Assembly (NCBI GenBank): GCA_948469815.1
Contig: CAOKMR010000015.1
Span: 1 to 36,577, forward strand
Origin: an uncultured Clostridiaceae bacterium
Lineage (GTDB): Bacteria > Bacillota > Clostridia > TANB77 > CAG-508
Length of the DNA: 36,577 nt
Direction: 5' to 3'
The translations under genes were made by a program, and so were the position numbers. Of the stretch, positions 1,296 through 16,429 are shown piece after piece; positions within the stretch are counted from its first letter, which is position 1; every line of letters begins with the position of its first letter. The notes below the pieces were generated by a model, which was given only the letters and a program-made list of their open reading frames with translations, was not told the DNA's origin and did no database searches.

Positions 1296-2894
1296 TTATT
1301 TATAAATCATATAATCAATATCATCGAAGATTTTGTCTTTTTTTGAAATTTCATTTAAAAATATCTCATCAATTTCATCATTTTTAATTTGATAATAGAG
1401 TTTAGTAAATCTACCAATATGTTCTTTTATTCTTTTATGAGCATAATCAACCATTGTTTGATTTGTAATAATAAAATTCCAATCACTACTTTGTGCAAGT
1501 AATAATTCTCTAGCGCATTGATTTAATGCTTTACGTTTTAGACTAGTTTTAGGCTCATTAGGGAATAAATTTGTAATTTCAACCATTCTATCGCCAGCAA
1601 TGTGATAATGTCTGTGAACATAATCATTTAAAGGATTTAGCCAAACCTCACTATAACCATTAGCACCCCAACTTGACCTACAAGGTGTAGATTCTTGAAT
1701 TTCAGGATATAAATCAATATATTCACTAGGTGTAATTAATTTGTAATCACATTTATCATAATATATTTTTTTAAACAAAATGTATAACCAATCTGGTCCC
1801 TCATACCACCAATGTCCATAAAGTTCAGCATCGTAAGGACAAACTATTATAGGCTTTTTTCCATCCATTTGAGAATAAAGATAACTAATTTGAGATTGTC
1901 TACAATCAAAAAAGTGACCAGCTTGTTTTTCTACAGAATCCATGGCCCATTTAATATTATAATAATCTTTATTTTCGGTTTTTCCTGTAATTCTATAATA
2001 TTTAATTTGAGTATTAACTCTAACACCATTATGAGCAATAAATGGTTTTATATAATCATAAGGCGCATCATAACCAATATCTCTATAAAATTCGCGATAA
2101 TTAGGGTCACCTGGATATCCATTTATAGAACTCCAAACCTGTCTAGAAGATTCTAAATCTCTACCAAATGCAATTATTCCATTAGGAGAAACAATAGGAG
2201 CAAAAGTACCATAAACTGGAGTAGGATTAGCATATAAAATACCATGGGTTTCAGTTATTATATATTGAATTCCAAATTCTTTAAGATATTTGTCTGTTTC
2301 AGGAATATATCCACATTCAGGAAGCCAAATTCCTCTAGGTTTTTTTCCAAAATATTTTTCATAAGTTTGTACACCAACTGCAATCTGAGCACGAACAGTT
2401 TTTTCATTTAAATATAGAATCGGGAAATAACCATGTGTTGCCCCACAAGTAATAATTTCAAGTAAACCAATATCTTGAAAATACTTAAATCCTTCTATCA
2501 AATTACAATTATATGTCTCTTTAAAAATATGTAAATCATCAGTATATCTATTTAGGTAATAGTTTGCTAATTCACAAACTTTATCATTACCTTTATTACG
2601 AATAAGTTCTTTTTTAGAAAGTTCAATATGTTGTTTTAGATATTTTATGTAGCGTTTTTGTAACATTTTGTTATCAAGCATTGAAAGAAGAGGTGGAGTC
2701 ATAGACATAGTTATTCTAAAATTAACATTTTCATTTTCCAATTTTTTGAAGTTTTTTAGCAAAGGTATGTAAGTTTCAGAGATTGCTTCAAATAACCACT
2801 GTTCCTCTAAATAATCTTCACTTTCTGGGTGATGCACAAATGGTAAATGTGCATGCAATATAAAACAAACATAACCTTTTTCATTAGTAGTCAT
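1296..2894 (-). CDS. Glycoside hydrolase family 57 1,4-alpha-glucan branching enzyme
   Basis: Cytoplasmic enzyme of glycogen or alpha-glucan metabolism that moves alpha-1,4 segments to alpha-1,6 branches. It shows the GH57 signatures: HAHLPF near residue 14, WLPEC with the nucleophile Glu193, and CPYDAELYGHWW with the acid/base Asp355. These positions are very close to the Glu183/Asp354 of the characterised Thermococcus GH57 branching enzyme. The C-terminal part is the DUF1957 helical region. At 532 aa it has the expected length. The start at 2894 is preceded by AAAGGAGA; an upstream in-frame ATG at 2927 has no such site and lies in a hairpin. It is the second gene of a minus-strand pair with the DUF4912 gene, a common pairing in Clostridia. 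GH57 amylases are the main alternative, but the whole-length match favours branching enzyme. Confidence 0.85.
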   Translation of the reverse strand: MTTNEKGYVCFILHAHLPFVHHPESEDYLEEQWLFEAISETYIPLLKNFKKLENENVNFRITMSMTPPLLSMLDNKMLQKRYIKYLKQHIELSKKELIRNKGNDKVCELANYYLNRYTDDLHIFKETYNCNLIEGFKYFQDIGLLEIITCGATHGYFPILYLNEKTVRAQIAVGVQTYEKYFGKKPRGIWLPECGYIPETDKYLKEFGIQYIITETHGILYANPTPVYGTFAPIVSPNGIIAFGRDLESSRQVWSSINGYPGDPNYREFYRDIGYDAPYDYIKPFIAHNGVRVNTQIKYYRITGKTENKDYYNIKWAMDSVEKQAGHFFDCRQSQISYLYSQMDGKKPIIVCPYDAELYGHWWYEGPDWLYILFKKIYYDKCDYKLITPSEYIDLYPEIQESTPCRSSWGANGYSEVWLNPLNDYVHRHYHIAGDRMVEITNLFPNEPKTSLKRKALNQCARELLLAQSSDWNFIITNQTMVDYAHKRIKEHIGRFTKLYYQIKNDEIDEIFLNEISKKDKIFDDIDYMIYK

Positions 2895-2920
2895 AAATAA
2901 TTCTCCTTTATTAATATTGT

Positions 2921-2945
2921 AAGACACATAAAAGCAATGTGTCTT
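2921..2945 (-). other. Perfect hairpin between DUF4912 and GH57 genes
   Basis: Arms AAGACACAT (2921-2929) and ATGTGTCTT (2937-2945) pair perfectly around a 7-base loop just before the branching-enzyme ribosome binding site. There is no T-run on the minus strand, so it may be an mRNA processing or stability element rather than a terminator. Confidence 0.4.
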
Positions 2946-2967
2946 GTTATATTTTAAAATGTAAATT

Positions 2968-3810
2968 CTAAAACATTCCAGATGTCGGATTACCCGAAGA
3001 TGGATTAGAAAACATTTTATTATTTTCTAAAATTTCATCTTTGTATAAATTAGTATAAAAACGGTAAACTTTATGCTTTTTGCTATATATATTTCCTATA
3101 TTTGTCATTAAACGTATACTTCCGAAATCCTTATTATCTATAGTACCAGTTTTTACATTTTTAAATTTAATATTTGTAAAATCAGTTTCATCAAATAATA
3201 CATGATCATTAGGTGAAATTAATTTATTAGAGGAAGAAACATAAGTGTATCTAGAAGGATTTGTAATATTACGTCTCCCAAGTTCTATTTCATATTCACA
3301 ATCTGGTTCTTGCATGTGTAAATACCAACTATTAGCAAAATCATTGATTTCAACTTCAAAGAAAATATCTTTTGTTTTATTATGAATAAGTAAAACAGGT
3401 TTTGTGGTATTAAAGAAATCTTTACCATGTTTCTCTATAAAAATCTTTCTATCGTCATCAGAAATATCCCAATATACAAACAAGGTTGTAGGAGTTTGAG
3501 CTAGAACCCTAACTATAGTTTGATTGTATCTATAAGGTAAATCGTAATATTCTGATATAGGGGAAGGTTTTGAGATAATAATAGAATTATCACTTTTAGT
3601 AGTATTTTTCACTGCATTCTTTCTAGATTTAGTACTGTTTTTACTAGTGTTTTTTTTCGTAGTAGAATTAGTAGTAATTTTTTTATTAGCACTAGTTTTT
3701 ATTTTTTTGGAAGATATAGAATTTGTTTTGCTCGATATAGACTTCTTAATTTCCTTATTTTCATTATTTATAAAATCTTGTTTTTTTTCTTTTTTTGTAA
3801 CTCTTGACAT
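2968..3810 (-). CDS. DUF4912 domain protein with Lys/Ser/Thr-rich N-terminus
   Basis: The first ~85 residues are low complexity (Lys, Ser, Thr, Asn), strongly basic, without a signal peptide. Residues ~88-245 match the DUF4912 pattern: a short aromatic run (YYDLPYRY), a beta-rich start with FVYWDIS, and HMQEPDCEYEIELGRR. The family's biochemical role is not settled; the adjacent branching enzyme suggests a link to glucan metabolism, possibly glucan binding by the beta-sandwich-like domain, which is inference. The start at 3810 has AAGGAGGAAG upstream. A promoter with 17-bp spacing is seen before it, and the branching-enzyme gene follows after 73 bases on the same strand. The basic tail could bind nucleic acid or an anionic polymer. 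Confidence 0.75.
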   Translation of the reverse strand: MSRVTKKEKKQDFINNENKEIKKSISSKTNSISSKKIKTSANKKITTNSTTKKNTSKNSTKSRKNAVKNTTKSDNSIIISKPSPISEYYDLPYRYNQTIVRVLAQTPTTLFVYWDISDDDRKIFIEKHGKDFFNTTKPVLLIHNKTKDIFFEVEINDFANSWYLHMQEPDCEYEIELGRRNITNPSRYTYVSSSNKLISPNDHVLFDETDFTNIKFKNVKTGTIDNKDFGSIRLMTNIGNIYSKKHKVYRFYTNLYKDEILENNKMFSNPSSGNPTSGMF

Positions 3811-3972: not shown

Positions 3973-6186
3973 ATGAAGAAAATAATTCTAAAAATAGATG
4001 GTATGAGTTGTAGTGCTTGTTCAAATGGATTAGAGAAATACTTAAATAAACAAGAAGGAATAAGTAGTGCAAGTGTGAATTTAGTGATGGCAAATGCCTT
4101 AATTGAATTTGATGAGAATATTTTAAATCAAAAAAAGATAGAAAGCTTCGTAAAAGAAGCGGGATTTAAGAGTTTAGGAATATATAATAATGAAATAGAA
4201 AAGGATAGTAACAAAAGTGAAAAAGTAAAATTCATTATATTTGGGGGCTTAGCAATTGTTTTATTATATATCTCGATGGGACATATGATGGGATTGCCAA
4301 TAATAGATAAATTGAATATGCATAAAAATCCGATAACTTATACTATAGTTTTATTTATTTTAACTACAGCATTTTTAATATATGGATTTGGCATAATAAA
4401 AAATGGTATAAAAAACTTACTCCACAGAATACCCAATATGGATACGTTAGTCATGATAGGAGTACTTAGTAGTTATTTCTATAGTATATATGGAATGATA
4501 ATGATTATTAAAGGTCAAAATGATTATGTAGAAAATTTATACTTTGAGTCAGCTGCTATTGTTATATTTTTTATAAAATTAGGAAGATATATTGATGGAA
4601 TAAGTAAAGATAAGACAAAAGATTCAATAAAGAAATTAGTTCAAATTACGCCTAATAGTGCGATTATAAAAGTTAATGGAGAAGAAAAAGAGGTTACAAT
4701 TGATGAAATTAAAAAAGATGATATAGTAATTTCTCATGCTGGAGATAAAATTGCCGTAGATGGAGAAATTATAAGTGGAAAAGCACATTTAGATGAAACT
4801 TTTATAACAGGCGAAAGTAAACCTATTAGTAAAAGTGTAGGGAATAAAGTTATTGCAGGAAGTATTAATTATGATGGATACTTAGAATATAAAGCAGAAC
4901 GAATAGGAAAGGAATCCACTATATCTGAAATTGTTAGATTAGTAATAGAAGCAACAAACACAAAAGCACCAATTGCAAAAATAGCAGACAAAGTAAGTGG
5001 TTATTTTGTACCAATAGTTATTATTCTGGCTATTTTAACCTTTGCAGTTTATTTAATCTCAGGATATAGTTTTAATGAAGCAATAAATACCTTTGTAACT
5101 ATTTTAGTTGTAGCATGCCCATGTGCTCTTGGGTTAGCAACACCACTTGCGATAGTGGTAAGTGAGGGGATGTGTGCTAACAATGGAATATTAGTTAAGA
5201 AAAGTGAAATATTAGAAAATGCAGAAAAGATAGATACAATAGTGTTTGATAAAACTGGAACATTAACATATGGTAATCTAAAAATAGCAAATATCTTTAA
5301 TTATAGTAATTTAGAAGATAATAAAATTTTAAAGATTGCAGGGAGTATAGAGGCAAAATCTACTCATCCAATAAGTAAAGCATTTGTAGATTATTTAAAA
5401 GAAAACAAAATAGAAACTTTGCAGGTAAAAGAATTTAAGAATATAAGTGGATATGGAATTGCGGGAGAAATAGATGGAGACGAAATAATTTTAGGAAATG
5501 CAAAAATATTAAAGCAATTTGAAATAGAAAATAATCATTTACAAGATGAGAAGAAATTAGCCCAAAAAGGAAATAGTATTATATATGTAGTAAAGAACAA
5601 AACTATAATTTCAATTATTGGAGTAAATGATATTGTAAGAGAAAATGCAAAATCAGTTATAAAAAGGTTAAACATAAACAATATAGAAACTATAATGTTA
5701 ACAGGCGATAACAAAGAAACAGCAAACATTGTTGCTAAAAGTATAGGAATATCTAATATAATTTCGAATGTTTTACCATCAGAAAAAGCTGAAACTATAA
5801 AAAAATTGAAAGAAGATAATAAAAAGGTAATGATGTGTGGAGATGGAATAAATGATAGTCCAGCGTTAGCAAATGCTGATATCGGTGTAAGTGTTAATAG
5901 TGGAACAGATATAGCAATAGACTCATCTGATGTTATACTAATGAAAGATGATTTAAATAAGATTTTAGATTTAATTAACATTAGTAAAAAAACAATAAGG
6001 AATATCAAACAAAATTTATTTTGGGCATTTTTCTATAATAGTTTAATGATACCAATTTCGATGGGACTGTTAAAACCTATTGGAATATCTATAAATCCAA
6101 TGATAGCTGGATTTACTATGATACTTAGTAGTTTTACAGTAATATTAAATGCTTTAAGATTAAAATATATAAAAATGGAAAGGTGA
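3973..6186 (+). CDS. copA: Copper-translocating P1B-type ATPase
   Basis: Membrane ATPase that exports Cu(I). Domains in order: one N-terminal heavy-metal-associated domain with GMSCSAC (Cys13, Cys16); membrane helices from ~residue 82; the actuator loop with TGES; the transmembrane metal site CPC at 382-384; the phosphorylation site DKTGT with Asp426; the HP signature in STHPISKA; the hinge GDGIND at 623-628; and two final helices. The intramembrane CPC indicates monovalent copper or silver rather than zinc. At 737 aa with a single HMA domain it is a normal short CopA. The start has AAGGAGGGATA directly upstream. The stop overlaps the ribosome binding site of the following chaperone gene, so the two are translated together. 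No copper repressor gene lies in the window. Confidence 0.93.
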   Translation: MKKIILKIDGMSCSACSNGLEKYLNKQEGISSASVNLVMANALIEFDENILNQKKIESFVKEAGFKSLGIYNNEIEKDSNKSEKVKFIIFGGLAIVLLYISMGHMMGLPIIDKLNMHKNPITYTIVLFILTTAFLIYGFGIIKNGIKNLLHRIPNMDTLVMIGVLSSYFYSIYGMIMIIKGQNDYVENLYFESAAIVIFFIKLGRYIDGISKDKTKDSIKKLVQITPNSAIIKVNGEEKEVTIDEIKKDDIVISHAGDKIAVDGEIISGKAHLDETFITGESKPISKSVGNKVIAGSINYDGYLEYKAERIGKESTISEIVRLVIEATNTKAPIAKIADKVSGYFVPIVIILAILTFAVYLISGYSFNEAINTFVTILVVACPCALGLATPLAIVVSEGMCANNGILVKKSEILENAEKIDTIVFDKTGTLTYGNLKIANIFNYSNLEDNKILKIAGSIEAKSTHPISKAFVDYLKENKIETLQVKEFKNISGYGIAGEIDGDEIILGNAKILKQFEIENNHLQDEKKLAQKGNSIIYVVKNKTIISIIGVNDIVRENAKSVIKRLNINNIETIMLTGDNKETANIVAKSIGISNIISNVLPSEKAETIKKLKEDNKKVMMCGDGINDSPALANADIGVSVNSGTDIAIDSSDVILMKDDLNKILDLINISKKTIRNIKQNLFWAFFYNSLMIPISMGLLKPIGISINPMIAGFTMILSSFTVILNALRLKYIKMER

Positions 6187-6191
6187 ATGTT

Positions 6192-6419
6192 ATGTTTGGA
6201 GAAAAAATAATTAAGATAATTTTCATAGATGGTATGCACTGTATGCATTGCGCAAAAAAAGTAGAAGAAGTATTAAAAGAAATAAAACAAGTAAAATCAG
6301 TAAAGGTAATCCTTGAAGAAAAAAAGGCAGAAATTATATTAAAAGAAAAAATTGATAATGAAGTTTTAAAGGAAACCATAGAAAATTTGGGATATAATGT
6401 AGTAGAGGTTAGAGATTAG
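6192..6419 (+). CDS. copZ: Copper chaperone, HMA domain
   Basis: A 75-aa cytoplasmic single heavy-metal-associated domain that would carry Cu(I) to CopA. The metal site is GMHCMHC, a CxxC with His between the cysteines, followed by AKKVEEVL as in the first helix of the fold. ATG 6192 is chosen because AAAGGTGA, made by the last bases of copA, lies 5 bases before it; a GTG at 6183 in the same frame would overlap copA and has poor spacing. It is coupled to copA and followed by a strong hairpin. The closest alternative is the HMA protein of a mercury or generic metal operon, but the copA partner argues for copper. Confidence 0.88.
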   Translation: MFGEKIIKIIFIDGMHCMHCAKKVEEVLKEIKQVKSVKVILEEKKAEIILKEKIDNEVLKETIENLGYNVVEVRD

Positions 6420-8421: not shown

Positions 8422-8457
8422 TTGACAAAAACGGATTACAGATGTAATCTATATTAT
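8422..8457 (+). promoter_or_regulatory. asnB promoter
   Basis: Perfect -35 TTGACA (8422-8427). The -10 is ambiguous: TAATCT (8445-8450) has 17-bp spacing and overlaps operator 1; TATTAT (8452-8457) is a better sequence but has a 24-bp spacer. The bla-type promoter at 10321 has the same TTGACA-N17-TAATCT arrangement. Confidence 0.6.
8434..8449. promoter_or_regulatory. BlaI/MecI-type operator 1 of asnB
   Basis: Perfect palindrome GATTACAGATGTAATC. It contains the TACA-N2-TGTA core of BlaI/MecI operators and covers the spacer and -10 of the asnB promoter, so binding would block RNA polymerase. Confidence 0.75.
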
Positions 8458-8477
8458 AAGATTACAATTGTAATCTT
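8458..8477. promoter_or_regulatory. BlaI/MecI-type operator 2 of asnB
   Basis: Perfect 20-bp palindrome AAGATTACAATTGTAATCTT. Its centre is 26 bp after that of operator 1. Relative to the -35 it sits within 2 bp of where the operator of the repressor's own promoter sits. Confidence 0.78.
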
Positions 8478-8503
8478 ATATCGAAGTATGAGGAGGAAAT
8501 ATT

Positions 8504-10315
8504 ATGTGTGGAATAGTAGGATTTATAAGTTCAAAAGGAGAAAAAGGAAAAATAATAAAAAAGATGACAGATAAACTAATTCATCGTGGACCAGATGAAG
8601 AAGGATTTTATATAGATGAAAACATTGCTTTAGGTCATCGTAGATTATCAATTATAGATTTAGATAATGGAAAACAACCAATTAGTAATAAAAATTTCGT
8701 AGTCATATTTAATGGTGAAATATATAATTATATGGAGCTAAAAGCAGAGCTGATAGAAAAGAATCATAAATTTGAAACTGATAGTGATACAGAAGTACTA
8801 TTACATGGATATGAGGAATGGGGTAATCATCTTCCTGAAAAATTAAGAGGAATGTTTGCATTTGCTATTTGGGATAAAGAAAATAGAAATTTATTTTGTG
8901 CACGTGATAATTTTGGAATAAAGCCATTGTATTATTATAAAAATGAAGATGTGTTTATGTTTGCATCAGAAATAAAGGCATTTTTAGAACATCCTCAATT
9001 TGAAAAAATATTGAACAAGGATTTAATTAATCTATATCTATCTTTTAGTTTTACACCAACAGATGAAACATTTTTTAAAGGTGTATATTGTTTAGAACCA
9101 GGACATACCTTAACATTAAAAGATAATAAAATAAATATAGAGCAATATTATGAAATAAATTTAGAAGAACAGAATAGAGACTTTGATGAGGTAGTAGAAG
9201 AAATAAGTAAAACAATGAAAAGTTCAGTAGAATATCATAAAATAAGTGATGTTGAGGTTGGGGCATTTTTATCTAGTGGAATTGATTCTTCATATATTGT
9301 GAGTTTAGCAAAACCAAACAGAACATATACAATAGGATATAACTTACCAAAATATAGTGAAATAAGATACACCAAAAAATTGGCAGAAACATTAGGAATT
9401 AAGAATATAAGCAAAAAAGTATCTCAAAAAGAATATATGGAAGAAGTTGAAAAAATGCTATATCATATGGATGAACCATGTGCTGACCCATCTGCTATTG
9501 CATTATATTCAGTATCAAAATTAGCAAGTAATGATGTAAAGGTTATAATGTCAGGAGAAGGTGCAGATGAATTTTTTGGAGGATATAATACATATAGAGA
9601 AGCAATAGATTATAAAGCATATGATAAACTACCATACTGGATTCGCCATTTATTATCTAGAATATTTAGTTATCTACCAGAATTTAAAGGACGTAATTTT
9701 ATTGTACGTAGAGGGACTAAACTAGAAAATGAATATGTCGGAGTAAATAAAATATTTGGTGATGAAGAAATAAAAAAAGTATTAAATTTTAAAGGTACAA
9801 TTAAACATAAAGATATAACAAAATCTTTATTTTATAAAAATAAGGATAAAAGTGATATTGTAAAAATGCAAGCAGTAGATATAAAATATTGGCTTGTGAA
9901 AAATATTCTTCTAAAAGTAGATAAAATGACAATGGCAAATTCCATTGAAGCAAGGACACCTTTTATAGATAAAGAAGTTTTTAAAGTAGCAAGTACAATG
10001 CCACCCAAATGTAAATTATCAAAAGATAATACAAAAATCGCATTAAGAGAAGCATGTAAAAAGGATATTCCAAATGAAGCCTATAAAAAGAAAAAATTGG
10101 GCTTTCCAGTACCAATAAGGGAGTGGATGAGAGAAGATGTAATATATAGTGAAATAAAACAAACAGTGGAGCAGGACTTTGTTAGTGAATTTTTTAAACA
10201 AGAATATGTAATCAAATTATTAGAACAACATAAGAATCATAAAAGAGATAACTATAAAAAAATTTGGGCAATATATTGTTTTATAAAATGGTATGAAATA
10301 TATTTTATGAGATAA
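8504..10315 (+). CDS. asnB: Glutamine-dependent asparagine synthetase-type amidotransferase
   Basis: Class II glutamine amidotransferase of 603 aa. The nucleophile is Cys2 (MCGIVGF), followed by RGPDEEG, then the synthetase domain with the ATP pyrophosphatase loop SSGIDSS at 257-263 and SGEGADEFFGGY. The C-terminal half (KMTMANSIEARTPF, KKKLGFPVPIREW) matches full-length B. subtilis AsnB as I recall it. Proteins of this type make asparagine, and in B. subtilis and C. difficile AsnB amidates meso-diaminopimelate in peptidoglycan. The usual SGGxDSS is SSGIDSS here, a small change. The start has AGGAGG upstream. Two BlaI-type operators sit in its promoter and the repressor-sensor pair follows directly, so regulation by wall stress is likely, which favours the peptidoglycan role over plain amino-acid synthesis. 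Confidence 0.88.
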   Translation: MCGIVGFISSKGEKGKIIKKMTDKLIHRGPDEEGFYIDENIALGHRRLSIIDLDNGKQPISNKNFVVIFNGEIYNYMELKAELIEKNHKFETDSDTEVLLHGYEEWGNHLPEKLRGMFAFAIWDKENRNLFCARDNFGIKPLYYYKNEDVFMFASEIKAFLEHPQFEKILNKDLINLYLSFSFTPTDETFFKGVYCLEPGHTLTLKDNKINIEQYYEINLEEQNRDFDEVVEEISKTMKSSVEYHKISDVEVGAFLSSGIDSSYIVSLAKPNRTYTIGYNLPKYSEIRYTKKLAETLGIKNISKKVSQKEYMEEVEKMLYHMDEPCADPSAIALYSVSKLASNDVKVIMSGEGADEFFGGYNTYREAIDYKAYDKLPYWIRHLLSRIFSYLPEFKGRNFIVRRGTKLENEYVGVNKIFGDEEIKKVLNFKGTIKHKDITKSLFYKNKDKSDIVKMQAVDIKYWLVKNILLKVDKMTMANSIEARTPFIDKEVFKVASTMPPKCKLSKDNTKIALREACKKDIPNEAYKKKKLGFPVPIREWMREDVIYSEIKQTVEQDFVSEFFKQEYVIKLLEQHKNHKRDNYKKIWAIYCFIKWYEIYFMR

Positions 10316-10320
10316 ATTAC

Positions 10321-10349
10321 TTGACAATATAATTAAAATATTATAATCT
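10321..10349 (+). promoter_or_regulatory. Promoter of the blaI-blaR1-like pair
   Basis: TTGACA (10321-10326) begins 6 bases after the asnB stop. TATAAT (10342-10347) has 15-bp spacing and the overlapping TAATCT (10344-10349) has 17. The pair can therefore be expressed apart from asnB. Confidence 0.65.
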
Positions 10350-10354
10350 TATAC

Positions 10355-10374
10355 AAGGTTACATTTGTAACCTT
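10355..10374. promoter_or_regulatory. BlaI/MecI-type operator of the repressor gene
   Basis: Perfect 20-bp palindrome AAGGTTACATTTGTAACCTT, the third TTACA-N2-TGTAA site in the locus, just downstream of the -10. It indicates autoregulation of the repressor-sensor operon. Confidence 0.78.
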
Positions 10375-10391
10375 ATAGAAAGGAGAAAATG

Positions 10392-10766
10392 ATGCCAAAT
10401 AAATATGATATAACTGATGCAGAGCTAGAGATTATGCAAGTATTATGGAAAAATAAAGAATGTGACTTAAATACTATTATAGAAGAATTAAATGGAGAAA
10501 CAGATAAAAATAGAAATACTGTAAAAACTTTATTAAGAAGATTAATACTAAAAGGTTCTGTTGAATCGAAAAAGATAAATTTAAAAGATACAGTGTATGT
10601 GCCAAAGGTAAAAAAAGATAAATTTTTATCTAATCAAAACGACAACTTTCTAAAAAAACTATACAATGGAAAAACAGGAAATTTATTATTAAATTTCGTA
10701 GAAAATAAAAAAGTATCAAAAGAGGAATTACAAAAACTAATAGACATATTAGAAAGCGAGGACTAA
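10392..10766 (+). CDS. BlaI/MecI-family winged-helix repressor
   Basis: DNA-binding dimer of 124 aa. Residues ~5-75 form the winged helix (ITDAELEIMQVLWK, then NTVKTLLRRL as recognition helix) and residues 80-124 the dimerisation helices. ATG 10392 is preferred over ATG 10389 because AGGAG (10381-10385) is then 6 bases away. With that start the sequence LLLNFVE places Asn101-Phe102 at exactly the site where BlaI and MecI of staphylococci are cut on induction. Three palindromic operators lie in this locus, two before asnB and one before this gene. The gene ends one base before the start of the sensor gene, so the pair is co-translated. Seen: the motif and operators. Inferred: control of asnB. 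Confidence 0.9.
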   Translation: MPNKYDITDAELEIMQVLWKNKECDLNTIIEELNGETDKNRNTVKTLLRRLILKGSVESKKINLKDTVYVPKVKKDKFLSNQNDNFLKKLYNGKTGNLLLNFVENKKVSKEELQKLIDILESED

Positions 10767-10767
10767 A

Positions 10768-12714
10768 ATGTTAGAAATATTAATAAATATATGTGAAATT
10801 ATATCTCCAATATTTTATAAAATATTATATATGTCAGTTATAGGAACAATATTAGGAATACTAATTTTAATACTAACAAAACTTTTTGATAATAAACTTT
10901 CTGCAAAATGGAAATCTTTAATGTGGATAATACCACTAATATTTTTAATTATACCAATACAAAGAATTGAAATAAAAACTCCTAATAGCATACCTATAAG
11001 TTCAACCATAGACAAAGTAGAAAATATTTTTAATAGTGTAGAACCAATAGATCATAAAGAATTAAATAAAGGTACATATAAATTGACAGAATCACAAACA
11101 GTACAATTAGAAGAAATACAAAATAATGAGAATCCCAAATATGATACAAAAGAAATTATATTAAATATGATAATACCACTATTATGGTTAATAGTTTCTA
11201 TAATGGGATTATTTGTATTTATAATAGGAAATGTAAGTCTAATATCTAAAGTAAGAAAAACTAAAAAAGTTAAAGATTATAGAATTAAAGCTATACAGAG
11301 AAATTGTAAGAGAAAACTAAAAATACATAAAAATATAGAAATAAGAAGTCAAAAGGCTAATACTTCTCCATGTATTTATGGAATAATGCGTCCTAAAATA
11401 TTAGTTCCAGAGGGCTTTACAGAAAAAGAAGATGAAATTATAGAAAATGTATTTATGCATGAATTATCACATTATAAAAGAAAAGATATGATAACTAATT
11501 TTATATTAATAATAATTACATCTTTGCATTGGTTTAATCCTTTCGTATATGCTCTTTTTAAAAAAATAAGACAAGAAATGGAACTTGCGACAGATGAAAT
11601 AGCTTTAAGTAAAATGAATAAAGATGAAAAAAAGAAATATGGATTAACATTAATAAATTTATTACAAACATATCAAAATGAGCAATTAGCAACTAAAATG
11701 TTATGTATTATAGATGATAATAAGAGTATGGAAAAAAGGATAATGATGATAAAATTATCTACAAAATTAAAAAAACATAGAATATCTATTATAATATTTA
11801 TTTTAAGTATTTTGCTTTGTGTGATAAGCCCATTTTTATTAAAAACAACAAATGAAATAAATGCTTATTCACTTTCAGATGAAGATAAACTATATGACCA
11901 AGTACAACAATATCTTATTAAATTAGCGGAAGAAATTCATTATTTAGAAAGACCTGAGTTTGCTAATAATAGTGATAATTTTAGAGTTTTTAGTGATATA
12001 GTTAAATTAGGTATTAGACAGAATGAAGACGAAACATATGTATATATATGGGCATTAATTAAAACTTACTATGCACAAGAAGAATTATCAAGTAGTGGAA
12101 GTTCAATGCCATATAAATTTACTATAAAGAACAATCAAATTATAGATTATAAAATACCAACAGATGGTATAGATTATGGAGATTCAATAAAAGAGATTTT
12201 TCCAGAAGATATAAGAGAAAAATTGGAGCAATGTGAAAATCTATTAGATGAAGAAAAACTTGATAATGAGGCAAAAGAGTATTACAGATATCTTGATATT
12301 AATGGTAATTTAGAAGATGAAAAATTGAGCAATGAAGAATATATTAATTTAAAATCTAACCAGCAAGAAATAAATAAACTCGTAGGAATATGGAAACCAT
12401 TTAAAGCAGAGTATAATGGAGAGGAAATTTCTTTAACACAAGTATATGGCTCTGGAATATCATATGGTGGAGAATTGATATTAAATCATAATGGGACATA
12501 TACAGAATTTATAGGAGTATATTCTGATGAAACAATTAACGATTTACAAGGAACATATAGTATATATGGAAATGGTGAAAAAGCTTTATTAAAAACTAAT
12601 AATGGTGAAAAAAAAGCAGTAGAATGCCTAGAAAGCAGTAATGTAAATTCCGATGAAGTTACCATAGTAGAAAGATTAGAAAACGGAACTTGTATATACT
12701 TAAAAAAACAATAA
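10768..12714 (+). CDS. BlaR1-like M56 membrane metalloprotease with non-PBP sensor domain
   Basis: Membrane antirepressor-type protein of 648 aa. Helices lie at ~15-37, ~50-65 and ~125-150, then the cytoplasmic zinc protease with HELSH at 231-235 and the third ligand region ELATDE (Glu272, Asp276), then a last helix at ~338-358. In BlaR1 the outer domain that follows is a penicillin-binding fold of ~260 aa. Here the outer region (~360-648) shows no SxxK, SxN or KTG motif. It has an alpha-rich part (~370-540) and a C-terminal beta-rich part (~545-645; VGIWKPF, GGELILNHNGTYTEF, GTYSIYGNG) that resembles lipocalin-like domains. The ligand is therefore not obviously a beta-lactam. It probably senses an envelope signal and cleaves the BlaI-type repressor encoded just before it. 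Confidence 0.85.
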   Translation: MLEILINICEIISPIFYKILYMSVIGTILGILILILTKLFDNKLSAKWKSLMWIIPLIFLIIPIQRIEIKTPNSIPISSTIDKVENIFNSVEPIDHKELNKGTYKLTESQTVQLEEIQNNENPKYDTKEIILNMIIPLLWLIVSIMGLFVFIIGNVSLISKVRKTKKVKDYRIKAIQRNCKRKLKIHKNIEIRSQKANTSPCIYGIMRPKILVPEGFTEKEDEIIENVFMHELSHYKRKDMITNFILIIITSLHWFNPFVYALFKKIRQEMELATDEIALSKMNKDEKKKYGLTLINLLQTYQNEQLATKMLCIIDDNKSMEKRIMMIKLSTKLKKHRISIIIFILSILLCVISPFLLKTTNEINAYSLSDEDKLYDQVQQYLIKLAEEIHYLERPEFANNSDNFRVFSDIVKLGIRQNEDETYVYIWALIKTYYAQEELSSSGSSMPYKFTIKNNQIIDYKIPTDGIDYGDSIKEIFPEDIREKLEQCENLLDEEKLDNEAKEYYRYLDINGNLEDEKLSNEEYINLKSNQQEINKLVGIWKPFKAEYNGEEISLTQVYGSGISYGGELILNHNGTYTEFIGVYSDETINDLQGTYSIYGNGEKALLKTNNGEKKAVECLESSNVNSDEVTIVERLENGTCIYLKKQ

Positions 12715-12749: not shown

Positions 12750-12778
12750 TTGCCTATTATAAAACTTTATGATATACT
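12750..12778 (+). promoter_or_regulatory. Promoter of the coiled-coil protein gene
   Basis: TTGCCT (12750-12755), 17-bp spacer, TATACT (12773-12778) with an extended TGA before it. It begins 36 bases after the blaR1-like stop. No TTACA-N2-TGTAA site is near it. Confidence 0.6.
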
Positions 12779-12807
12779 ATTTACAAAATTATTTATGGAG
12801 GATAGAA

Positions 12808-15075
12808 ATGTCTGAAGAAACTAATGAAGAGATAGAAAAATTACAAAAAAAGTTAGAGTATATAGGATTAGATTTTGACAATATTCCTGAATTTTTAAGA
12901 AATACAGAAAATGTAGACTTTATACCAGAGAAATCATATTCAGAAGAAACGTACAGGGTTTATAAATATGTACCTATTAATGACATACAAATAATTTTTA
13001 CAAAAGCTAATAGGATGAATTCAATACAAGAAAAATATAAAAGTATTAGTCCAATATATTCATATCTTGTACCAGAAAATGAAGAAGATATAATAAAACA
13101 TAGCACTTTTTTAAAGATGTTACAGACTGTTGAAATTGAAGAAATAGAAGAAATAAGTGAACAACAGGATAAATTAAATAATGAAATACCATTTTTAATA
13201 AAATATGACAAAAATTATCTGTGGGAGATATATTATTCAAATCACTTGCATAAATATTTTATGTTGGTAACAACAGAAGATAAAGAATATGAAAGTTTCT
13301 TCTATGTATTAAGAGAGCAATTAAAAAATAGAAATAAAGATAAAAAAATTTTTGTGCCAATAACATATATGGATTATTCAAATAATCTATTAACTAAAGA
13401 TGAATTCAAAGATTTAGAAAAATATGTATTAAAATTTACTAGTGAATGGCCAATGATATATGAAATATATGATAAAGATGGGCATCCATCAATACAAATA
13501 TGTGGTAAAACAGTAGTTTATGGTAAACTAGAAAGTATTTATAAAATTAAATTAGACAATAAAGAAATTGCAACTAAATTTTTCAAATTAATAAAAGCAT
13601 TATTTATATTAGAAACAGAATTTCCACATGATTATAAATTTGATATACAGATATCACAAAATGGTGGATTAGAATTAGTATATAATTCAAAAATAATAAC
13701 ATATGAAATTTTAGGAAACTTTATAAAAGAAGAGTATAAAAAGAAATCAGAATATCTTCGTATACTAAAAAAAGAAGAAAAGATATTAAAAGAAGTATTA
13801 GACAACTTAAAAAGAGTAGAATCAGAAAGAGAAAAAGAATACTTGCTAAAACAAAATCAGGTAGCAACATATTTAAAATGTAGAAAAACCTTTTTTGGAA
13901 AAGTCAGATATTTCTTTAAAGGAAAATTAAAAGAAGAAATAAATAATAGATTAGAATTACCAGAACCAAAAATTGAAATAAACGAAGAAGAAATAAAACA
14001 AGAATATGAAAAAGATTTTTATACAATAGAAGATTTAATAAAATTGTGTAAAGAATTAAATGAAATTTCTAATACAGTTAAAGATATTAAAATGGATAAA
14101 ACTGCATTAGAAATAAAAAACAACCAATTAAAAGTAAAAATCAATAATGCTACAAAATTTATAGAAGAAATAGATAGCCATAGAAAAAGCATTTTTGAGT
14201 TTTGGAGATTTGCCAATAAGGATAATGGATTAGCATTAGAAAGTGGAACAATAGAAGAAAAGAAAGAAGAAAAAAATAAAATTTCAGAGCTATATTTTGA
14301 TTACATAGAAGATATAGAAGAAATTACTGTAAGAATTGACGAATTGCAAAGAAAAATACTATCAAAAGAAGATACAGATAATATATTTTTAGCTGTAACG
14401 AAGTTTTTAAATCCTATGAATGCTATAAAAAGCGGTAAACAATACAACTTTACAGCAGAATTAGAAGATATAAAAAACGATTTAAGAAGTATTGAATTAT
14501 TATTTGGAAAAGAAGAATTTGATATATTTGGCAGTTCAGTGGAAGATAAAACTAAAATAGATATAATAAAAAACAAAAAGCACAGAGAAAATAAAAAAGT
14601 TGAGCATAAAATACTAAAAATTAATAAAGAAACTGATACAATAGAATTTGTATCATATCTTCATGGTATCATTAATTCACTAGACAAGGTTTATGAAAAG
14701 AACAATTTAGGAATAAAATTAAATGTATATCAAGTGTCAGAAAAATCATTAAACATAGATGGTTATGGAATTTTTAATATTAATCCGCAAAATGCACTAA
14801 GAAAAATAAAGAATGAACCTATAATTAATTTATATACTATACATTTAAAATCTACAAGTCCAGCAATTGGTTTATCTAATATAATATATTATGATAATTT
14901 TAATGAGACTTTACCTATTGGGATGGATATATCAGATGAGGTATTATTAGATATTAGTAAATTAGATTTAGAATTAAAAAGACAGAAATTATTTAGAATA
15001 AATGTAATAATTAATGAACAAGATGTACAGACAAAAACAATATGTGCATATGAATATGAAGTTAGAGATAATTAA
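12808..15075 (+). CDS. Large predicted coiled-coil protein of unknown function, 755 aa
   Basis: I do not recognise a family. The start at 12808 follows GGAGGATA; an upstream in-frame ATG at 12769 lies within the promoter and is rejected. The protein is very rich in Lys, Glu, Ile and Asn, and has no signal peptide or membrane helix. Heptad-like charged stretches occur around residues 310-345, 395-465 and 480-535, with a basic island (RKTFFGKVRYFFKGKL) near 370-385. The N- and C-terminal parts look globular. It is the first gene of a two-gene unit with a membrane-anchored peptidoglycan amidase, 22 bases apart, which hints at a cytoplasmic scaffold or regulator for envelope work. Function is otherwise unknown. 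Confidence 0.7.
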   Translation: MSEETNEEIEKLQKKLEYIGLDFDNIPEFLRNTENVDFIPEKSYSEETYRVYKYVPINDIQIIFTKANRMNSIQEKYKSISPIYSYLVPENEEDIIKHSTFLKMLQTVEIEEIEEISEQQDKLNNEIPFLIKYDKNYLWEIYYSNHLHKYFMLVTTEDKEYESFFYVLREQLKNRNKDKKIFVPITYMDYSNNLLTKDEFKDLEKYVLKFTSEWPMIYEIYDKDGHPSIQICGKTVVYGKLESIYKIKLDNKEIATKFFKLIKALFILETEFPHDYKFDIQISQNGGLELVYNSKIITYEILGNFIKEEYKKKSEYLRILKKEEKILKEVLDNLKRVESEREKEYLLKQNQVATYLKCRKTFFGKVRYFFKGKLKEEINNRLELPEPKIEINEEEIKQEYEKDFYTIEDLIKLCKELNEISNTVKDIKMDKTALEIKNNQLKVKINNATKFIEEIDSHRKSIFEFWRFANKDNGLALESGTIEEKKEEKNKISELYFDYIEDIEEITVRIDELQRKILSKEDTDNIFLAVTKFLNPMNAIKSGKQYNFTAELEDIKNDLRSIELLFGKEEFDIFGSSVEDKTKIDIIKNKKHRENKKVEHKILKINKETDTIEFVSYLHGIINSLDKVYEKNNLGIKLNVYQVSEKSLNIDGYGIFNINPQNALRKIKNEPIINLYTIHLKSTSPAIGLSNIIYYDNFNETLPIGMDISDEVLLDISKLDLELKRQKLFRINVIINEQDVQTKTICAYEYEVRDN

Positions 15076-15097
15076 CCCCGAAAGGAGAATAAACTTT

Positions 15098-16429
15098 ATG
15101 AAAAAGAAGAGAAAACCGAACTTTTTAGCAATATTATTATTTCTTTGTATTTTGGTGTGTATTTTAATTGCAGTTTCATATTTATACAATAAAGAGCAAA
15201 AGAGAAAAATCCTATCAAGTATTGAAGACGAAATAATAGAAGTTAATAATTATTATTTATATGGAACACATTTTAACTTAGAAGGCAAAATAAAGGGAAT
15301 ATCAACTAATAATATAAAAGACATAAAATTTACATTAGTTGATATTTCAGAAAATGAAAAAGAATATGATGCAATATATGAAATAGATGGAAATGAATTA
15401 AACCTTACTACATCAAAGCTTATAAATGAAGGCATATATTTAGAAGATATTGAAAGCGGAAAGTATTTTCTGTTTTTAAAAATAAAATACTCAAACGATG
15501 AAATAAAATATTATTCAATGAGAAATAATACTAATTATCAAGACGTAGAATACTATACGATTACAAAAAACAAATCTAACAAAAAGGTAAATATAGAATT
15601 TGATATTTTTAAATCAAATGATGAAGAGGCTTCTTATATTAAATTTAGTGTAGCAAAAGCAAAACTACCTACAAGTGTTTATGATATTTCTATTGATCCA
15701 GGACATGGAGGAAGTGACCCAGGAGCAATTTCAGGGCAATATAAAGAAGCAGAAATAGCGATGAAGCATAGTGCAGAATTAAAAGACAAATTAGAAGAGT
15801 TAGGATTAAAAGTTATATTAACAAGAGATGGAACAGAGGATACATCAGAAACTAGCAAATTTGGCGTTTATAGTGTATATGATTTTGAAGGAAGAGTTAA
15901 TATTGTAGGAAGAGCAAAAGTAAAATACAATTTTTCAATACATGTTAATAGTTTTGATACAAATACACTAAGTGGAACAGAAATATATGCGCCATCAAAT
16001 GCATCATTAAAAATTGCGCAATCATTAGCAGATAATATAGTTAGTATAGCAAAAACTACATATTCAACAAGAAATACGGATAAAGTATCAGATGGTGTCT
16101 ATGTTAGAACATTTACAGACACTGAAATCGTAGAATCAGCTGAGACCGCTCAGAAAAAAGGATTTGAGCCATATAATATAACAACATCAACTCCATATTT
16201 ATATATGATAAGAGAAGTGGGAGGTAAAACAACAGGAGCATATATTGATGGAAGAAATAAAGGTATTGGAACTAATATGTATTACAATTCTAATATAGGA
16301 GTAGAAAGTTATTTAATAGAATTAGGATATATAATAAATAAAACAGACTTAAATAATATGTTAAATAATCAAACATCATATATTGAAGCTATAGCAAAAT
16401 CCATACAAGAAAACATTTGCAAAGAATAA
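15098..16429 (+). CDS. N-acetylmuramoyl-L-alanine amidase, membrane-anchored (Amidase_3)
   Basis: Zinc amidase that cuts the bond between MurNAc and the stem peptide. The start at 15098 follows AAAGGAG; an earlier in-frame ATG (15014) would overlap the preceding gene. A single N-terminal helix (residues ~8-28) with no cleavage site anchors it outside the membrane. Residues ~30-190 form an unrecognised spacer, then the Amidase_3 domain: IDPGHGGSDPGA with zinc ligand His203, Glu217 in KEAE, His282 in SIHVNSF, and the catalytic Glu408 in LIELGYI. All key residues are present. An insertion-like segment (SDGVYVRTFTDTEIVESAE) lies before the last motif. Its 443 aa fit CwlD-like or cell-separation amidases; the sporulation type CwlD is shorter. 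Confidence 0.88.
   Translation: MKKKRKPNFLAILLFLCILVCILIAVSYLYNKEQKRKILSSIEDEIIEVNNYYLYGTHFNLEGKIKGISTNNIKDIKFTLVDISENEKEYDAIYEIDGNELNLTTSKLINEGIYLEDIESGKYFLFLKIKYSNDEIKYYSMRNNTNYQDVEYYTITKNKSNKKVNIEFDIFKSNDEEASYIKFSVAKAKLPTSVYDISIDPGHGGSDPGAISGQYKEAEIAMKHSAELKDKLEELGLKVILTRDGTEDTSETSKFGVYSVYDFEGRVNIVGRAKVKYNFSIHVNSFDTNTLSGTEIYAPSNASLKIAQSLADNIVSIAKTTYSTRNTDKVSDGVYVRTFTDTEIVESAETAQKKGFEPYNITTSTPYLYMIREVGGKTTGAYIDGRNKGIGTNMYYNSNIGVESYLIELGYIINKTDLNNMLNNQTSYIEAIAKSIQENICKE

Follow-up and report, generated by a model that had tools for sequence, protein, structure and literature searches.

A predicted BlaI–M56 protease switch at the asnB promoter of an uncultured clostridial bacterium

The BlaI–BlaR1 and MecI–MecR1 pairs of Staphylococcus and Bacillus licheniformis are autoregulated repressor–protease systems for inducible beta-lactamase or PBP2a. 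What does such a pair control when the gene beside it is asnB? This question is raised by a 36,577-nucleotide (nt) stretch of contig CAOKMR010000015.1 from an uncultured Clostridiaceae bacterium (the window), in which asnB is followed by blaI and a gene for a BlaR1-like M56 membrane metalloprotease. A preliminary description of this DNA had proposed that the pair controls asnB and, through it, peptidoglycan amidation. Our best overall explanation, with a probability of about 0.72, is that a BlaI–M56 switch governs asnB, whose product would amidate meso-diaminopimelate (mDAP). Reading frames in the window were identified by Pfam and NCBIfam profiles. The features of the locus, in order, are:

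8422–8427, + strand: −35 box TTGACA of the asnB promoter
8434–8449, + strand: operator O1, GATTACAGATGTAATC, in the −35/−10 spacer and overlapping the −10 box
8445–8450, + strand: −10 box TAATCT of the asnB promoter, 17 nt past the −35 box (predicted placement)
8458–8477, + strand: operator O2, AAGATTACAATTGTAATCTT, at about +1 to +20
8504–10315, + strand: asnB, glutamine-dependent amidotransferase of 603 amino acids, likely an mDAP amidase by its residue markers and its place in the Listeria mDAP amidase clade (TIGR01536, 523 bits; PF00733, PF13537)
10321–10326, + strand: −35 box TTGACA of the blaI promoter, with its −10 box TAATCT at 10344–10349
10355–10374, + strand: operator O3, AAGGTTACATTTGTAACCTT, in the blaI promoter at the position equivalent to O2
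10389–10766, + strand: blaI, Penicillinase_R repressor of 125 amino acids (PF03965, 104.9 bits, cut-off 22.6), predicted cleavage at N102-F103
10768–12714, + strand: blaR1-like gene, M56 membrane metalloprotease of 648 amino acids without a penicillin-binding domain (PF05569, 183 bits)
11875–12165, + strand: extracytoplasmic alpha+beta domain of the M56 protein, ~residues 370–466 (structure model and alignment)
12376–12711, + strand: C-terminal lipocalin-like barrel of the M56 protein, ~residues 537–648, the conserved presumed sensor (Lipocalin_4 matches and model)

Reading the sequence bore out the earlier claim of three perfect palindromes: O1, O2 and O3 are all perfect. O2 begins 30 nt and O3 28 nt past the respective TTGACA box, in agreement with the equal distance (within 2 bp) described before. 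The asnB promoter has two sites, and the blaI promoter has a single site at the place equivalent to O2. The natural reading of this difference is that asnB would be shut tightly and the repressor operon would be leakier. A promoter and terminator scan of the region gave a promoter count no higher than in shuffled sequences.

The core palindrome is not rare in itself. In the 2.25-Mb AT-rich assembly, the bare 12-mer TTACANNTGTAA occurs 15 times, compared with 12 for the reversed control, and we rejected rarity as an argument. The longer form of the palindrome occurs six times (three for the control), with three of the six at this locus. With the bare 12-mer close to the control level, the informative features are limited to the tandem arrangement of the sites, their position and their conservation.

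Conservation was assessed in relatives from uncultured Clostridia, found via BlaI protein similarity without use of the motif. In 12 of 12, asnB lies beside blaI and its promoter contains two perfect tandem TTACA-N2-TGTAA sites. Most of the AsnB proteins in these relatives are 30–35% different from that of the window, and the flanking genes vary between several groups. Conserved columns of the aligned promoters fall chiefly in the −35 box, O1 with the −10 box, O2 and the gene start, in the constant layout ACTTGACA-N17-TAAYCT. The −35 element is unchanged and the 12-mer cores of O1 and O2 are perfect in the window and all 12 relatives; TAAYCT and the 17-nt spacing are held across the 13 aligned promoters. 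The blaI promoter also has a shared layout, and the O3 equivalent is perfect in the window and in loci L027–L029 and degenerate in most other relatives. In L033, L034 and L036–L038, asnB and the blaI promoter are separated by a hairpin with a T run, which makes separate transcription of blaI probable at these loci.

Searches with the tandem motif pointed to the same genes. Across the class, 18 of 391 genomes matched (four with a control match), and 16 of the 18 loci directly precede a blaI–blaR1 pair, which identifies the tandem motif as a BlaI operator; the remaining loci are this window and one SNF-family transporter. Within the family, we searched 390 genomes with the tandem motif alone, blind to asnB, and 33 matched, compared with seven for the control. 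The 30 loci retrieved and inspected lie 21–41 bp before asnB (17, many of them in genomes already among the BlaI-found relatives), before blaI (12) or before a FemAB gene (one). Thus, 29 of 30 precede asnB or blaI. In the four loci among the 17 that were new (L172, L174, L178 and L184), blaI and an M56 gene also lie downstream of asnB.

Presence and absence follow the same line. In the genus of the window, three genomes have AsnB together with this BlaI and three have neither, and no such operators were found before AsnB homologues (47–66% identity) in genomes without this blaI. Taken with the unbiased motif search and the conserved promoter layout, this strongly supports the earlier proposal, and a BlaI-family repressor very probably controls asnB. 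A wider BlaI regulon was not found in the genome: apart from one before a second blaI, the other exact sites inspected lie inside reading frames or at their ends. This second BlaI–M56 pair (G000:C3, 57647–58003; L040), whose BlaI has 39% identity to the window BlaI, is preceded by a single palindrome with different flanks.

The window BlaI aligns with the S. aureus MecI and BlaI structures over nearly the full length, and TACANNTGTA operators precede both blaI itself and its putative target asnB. S. aureus BlaI is cleaved at N101-F102 (PMC9834060); the aligned position in the window protein is N102-F103, and N-F is present there in the window and all 12 relatives. The protein contains one Cys in total and no CxC motif, and its score for the NCBIfam CopY_TcrY profile is 73.9, under the cut-off of 122. 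On account of the single Cys and the missing CxC we do not regard it as CopY, despite the common operator core, and we rejected CopY control.

The M56 protein has hydrophobic segments that fit the BlaR1 layout. Its zinc motifs, HELSH (231–235) and E272LATD (E272-xxx-D276), are invariant among 12 M56 proteins. The protein has no penicillin-binding Pfam domain, and neither SxxK nor K(T/S)G occurs in residues 364–648; a canonical beta-lactam sensor was rejected on both grounds. The earlier naming of this protein as BlaR1 therefore holds for the M56 protease with its HEXXH and EXXXD motifs but fails in the strict sense, as the beta-lactam sensor domain has been replaced, a change that the preliminary description had missed. 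It follows that the sensor must respond to some other signal, and the earlier proposal that it detects wall stress is at most a candidate reading.

Two domains occupy the sensor region. The alpha+beta domain is absent in L031 and L032, and these shortened versions keep the C-terminal domain of ~110 residues. Lipocalin_4 matches were obtained in 5 of 11 members (best E-value 2.7e-5), with the window's own match at 19.0 bits below the cut-off of 22.4. In the model of the sensor region, this domain resembles a lipocalin/FABP-like barrel (Z up to 8.0), and the C-terminal sensor domain is probably lipocalin-like. The top Foldseek matches for the region (GH43 arabinanases and Spindlin) were set aside because of their high root-mean-square deviation. 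The full-length model was too poor for use, with a predicted local distance difference test (pLDDT) score of 60 and a predicted template modelling (pTM) score of 0.33.

What AsnB does is suggested by its residues, its relatives and its host. The Asp-binding D and R of the E. coli enzyme, which we take to be D384 and R387 (placed by alignment), have no equivalents in the aligned window AsnB, as in Listeria AsnB. The window and Listeria enzymes also have in common a large insertion after GGY, an extra insertion in the substrate region. The host MurE carries DNPR, the motif of mDAP-adding MurE enzymes, so the wall is expected to be of the mDAP type, which suggests that the substrate is present in the host. 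Listeria AsnB is a proven mDAP amidase (PMC8554201, which also supplied the Asp-binding and insertion criteria). In the tree, the window AsnB falls in a 28-row group with the Listeria enzyme (support 99/95); E. coli AsnB lies outside this group, on a long branch of unsure position. Nearer relatives adjoin wall genes, with asnB directly followed by murE in Collinsella (L125, NZ_OY725717.1) and by murC in L. curvatus (L122, NZ_CP016468.1), a gene context that supports a role of this AsnB group in the wall. Phylogeny and residue markers thus support the proposed mDAP amidation, short of proof, and we consider this activity of the window AsnB quite likely.

Together, these data suggest the following mechanism. 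The BlaI-family repressor would hold asnB off by binding the two palindromic operators, over the −10 region and the transcription start, and would hold its own blaI–blaR1-like operon at a lower level through one weaker operator. An envelope signal would activate the M56 membrane protease through the extracytoplasmic lipocalin-like domain. The activated protease would cut BlaI at N102-F103, whereupon the repressor would leave the operators and AsnB would be made. AsnB would then most likely amidate the mDAP of peptidoglycan precursors, altering cross-linking and hydrolase resistance.

Several observations weigh against this reading. Confidence in the sensor-region model is middling (pLDDT 72.6, pTM 0.52), and the fold matches are weak. 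At L035 (~5983–6381) and G023/L013 (G023:C66), blaI stands beside asnB but no M56 gene adjoins it, which shows that linkage of the protease is not universal. Finally, asnB encodes the sole PF00733 protein of the genome, and AsnA was not found. The proteolytic switch proposed earlier is supported by conservation of the N-F site in BlaI and of the zinc motifs in the M56 protein, the two loci lacking an adjacent blaR1 being exceptions; proteolytic release of BlaI by its M56 partner is likely. L035 and L013 also have different neighbours, a thioesterase-like gene at the first and a small membrane protein plus other genes at the second.

The single PF00733 protein and the missing AsnA bear on what is regulated. 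If AsnB were an ordinary asparagine synthetase under genuine repressor control, the module would govern asparagine supply or nitrogen use. As the only PF00733 protein in a genome that lacks AsnA, although AsnS is present, it might be expected to have such a role, and Listeria-type enzymes can be promiscuous: in PMC8554201, B. subtilis paralogues are cited as restoring asparagine prototrophy to E. coli. However, three genomes of the same genus lack both AsnB and AsnA and retain AsnS, so AsnB is dispensable for asparagine in this genus. The missing Asp-binding residues, the amidase-type insertion and the placement in the group of the proven mDAP amidase, with members beside murE or murC, also make an asparagine role for the window AsnB less likely, and we consider it improbable. 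The loci without an M56 gene bear instead on how BlaI is released. In B. licheniformis, the dipeptide gamma-D-Glu-mDAP displaces BlaI (PMC3305447). The AsnB substrate would also bear this dipeptide, which raises the possibility of feedback through that substrate. Were BlaI freed mainly by this cytoplasmic dipeptide and not by proteolysis, the module would sense unamidated wall turnover and AsnB would close the loop. Against this, the reported affinity is only in the mM range (PMC3305447), S. aureus BlaR1 cuts BlaI directly and unaided (PMC9834060), and in most relatives an M56 partner is present, its zinc motifs are invariant and BlaI retains the N-F site. We rate release by the dipeptide as slightly less probable even than the asparagine role.

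The operator itself could point to copper, since CopR and CopY use an identical core (PMC7253601) and the TACANNTGTA box would then be a cop operator. A heavy-metal P-ATPase of the copper type lies upstream at 3973–6186, the relative L162 has a copA-like gene upstream of the asnB block, and a Paenibacillus asnB–blaI–M56 arrangement sits in a copper island (see below). Yet rny separates the P-ATPase from the asnB block in the window, the genes upstream of this block vary between relatives, the tandem motif tracks blaI–M56 pairs, and the single Cys, the missing CxC and the sub-threshold CopY_TcrY score do not fit a copper repressor; a CopY-like response is very improbable. That the palindromes are chance features, or sites of another regulator, draws on the near-control count of the bare 12-mer. 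It is hardly credible in view of the tandem spacing, the cores that stayed perfect in the window and in every one of the 12 relatives amid otherwise diverged promoters, and the near-exclusive position of the blind motif loci before asnB or blaI.

Control of asnB by a BlaI–M56 switch shares much with the BlaI–BlaR1 and MecI–MecR1 systems: a Penicillinase_R repressor, TACANNTGTA dyads, an N-F site, an M56 zinc protease with HEXXH and EXXXD motifs, and an autoregulated repressor–protease operon. In contrast to those systems, the operators precede asnB and blaI, and the target is neither a beta-lactamase nor a low-affinity penicillin-binding protein; the target has a tandem operator and blaI a single weaker one; and a probable lipocalin-like domain takes the place of the penicillin-binding sensor. 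By family, the window system belongs with the BlaI repressors and the M56 proteases, and not with the beta-lactam-sensing BlaR1/MecR1 group, whose penicillin-binding sensor it lacks. CopY and CopR belong to the same BlaI/MecI/CopY family and share the operator core but differ in their CxC metal-binding motifs, which are missing here, where an M56 partner is present instead.

Wall genes linked to BlaI–M56 systems in place of a beta-lactamase are known from C. difficile, in which the BlaI–BlaR operon cd630_23900-23880 includes a peptidoglycan hydrolase (PMC9210968), and from C. thermocellum BlaI_1845 (PMC8457756). The target genes there are different, and the C. thermocellum BlaIs use another operator motif with GTCTAT/GACTAT half sites. 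The AsnB mDAP amidases of L. monocytogenes, B. subtilis, C. difficile, L. plantarum and C. glutamicum (LtsA) resemble the window enzyme in tree group, missing Asp-binding D and R, large insertion and an mDAP-type host MurE. In C. difficile, the Wal-ON condition induces asnB (PMC9210968). In the literature found, whose coverage of subscription journals is incomplete, no such amidase is described as BlaI-controlled, and our search returned no paper describing BlaI control of asnB. At this locus, the machinery of a beta-lactam resistance switch, with its sensor exchanged, appears to be linked, in a strongly conserved arrangement, to an enzyme that probably modifies peptidoglycan. This suggests that BlaI–M56 pairs serve generally as switches that sense the envelope, with the beta-lactam system as one specialised form. 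Two questions become testable, namely the ligands of non-penicillin M56 sensors and mDAP amidation as an inducible wall response in Clostridia.

Beyond asnB and blaI, just one further gene has a tandem operator in the inspected family loci: a FemAB gene (PF02388, 210 bits) at L186 (G030:C39, ~2061–3279), in a sister genus. FemAB proteins are another class of peptidoglycan stem-peptide modifiers. This promoter has the same −35/O1/O2 layout, and the genome has a BlaI of its own (47% identity), suggesting, from operator and layout, that a second stem-peptide modifier may be under BlaI control in the family. More tentatively, BlaI–M56 could form a beta-lactam-independent homeostatic circuit, reading the state of the stem peptide and inducing its modifier (AsnB here, FemAB in the sister genus). 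The lipocalin-like sensor might take its input from an envelope ligand, BlaI might bind an unamidated gamma-D-Glu-mDAP fragment, or both inputs might operate. At the SNF-family locus of the class search (L048; G077:C38, 19672–19947), tandem TTACANNTGTAA sites occur as two pairs ahead of a sodium symporter; blaI was not seen adjoining the symporter within the stretch examined.

Plasmids of Paenibacillus show the order asnB–hypothetical–blaI–M56 inside a copper-resistance island:

~154–171 kb of Paenibacillus lautus plasmid pAZOPL1 (NZ_CP032413.1; L127): asnB–hypothetical–blaI–M56

The palindrome here, ACTACA-N4-GTAGT, has two copies upstream of asnB and a single copy upstream of blaI. Every match falls at 154–172 kb of the 226-kb plasmid, and the control has none. 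We regard this case as parallel and not homologous wiring, given the different palindrome and the copper island; BlaI–M56 control of asnB may thus have arisen more than once. On pAZOPL1, the same palindrome also lies before a copper P-ATPase and near other genes.

Downstream of the M56 gene, the window contains a reading frame of 768 amino acids (12769–15075) that matched neither Pfam nor NCBIfam; a CwlD-like Amidase_3 gene (15014–16429) comes next. These two genes lie downstream of the asnB–blaI block in the closest relatives only.

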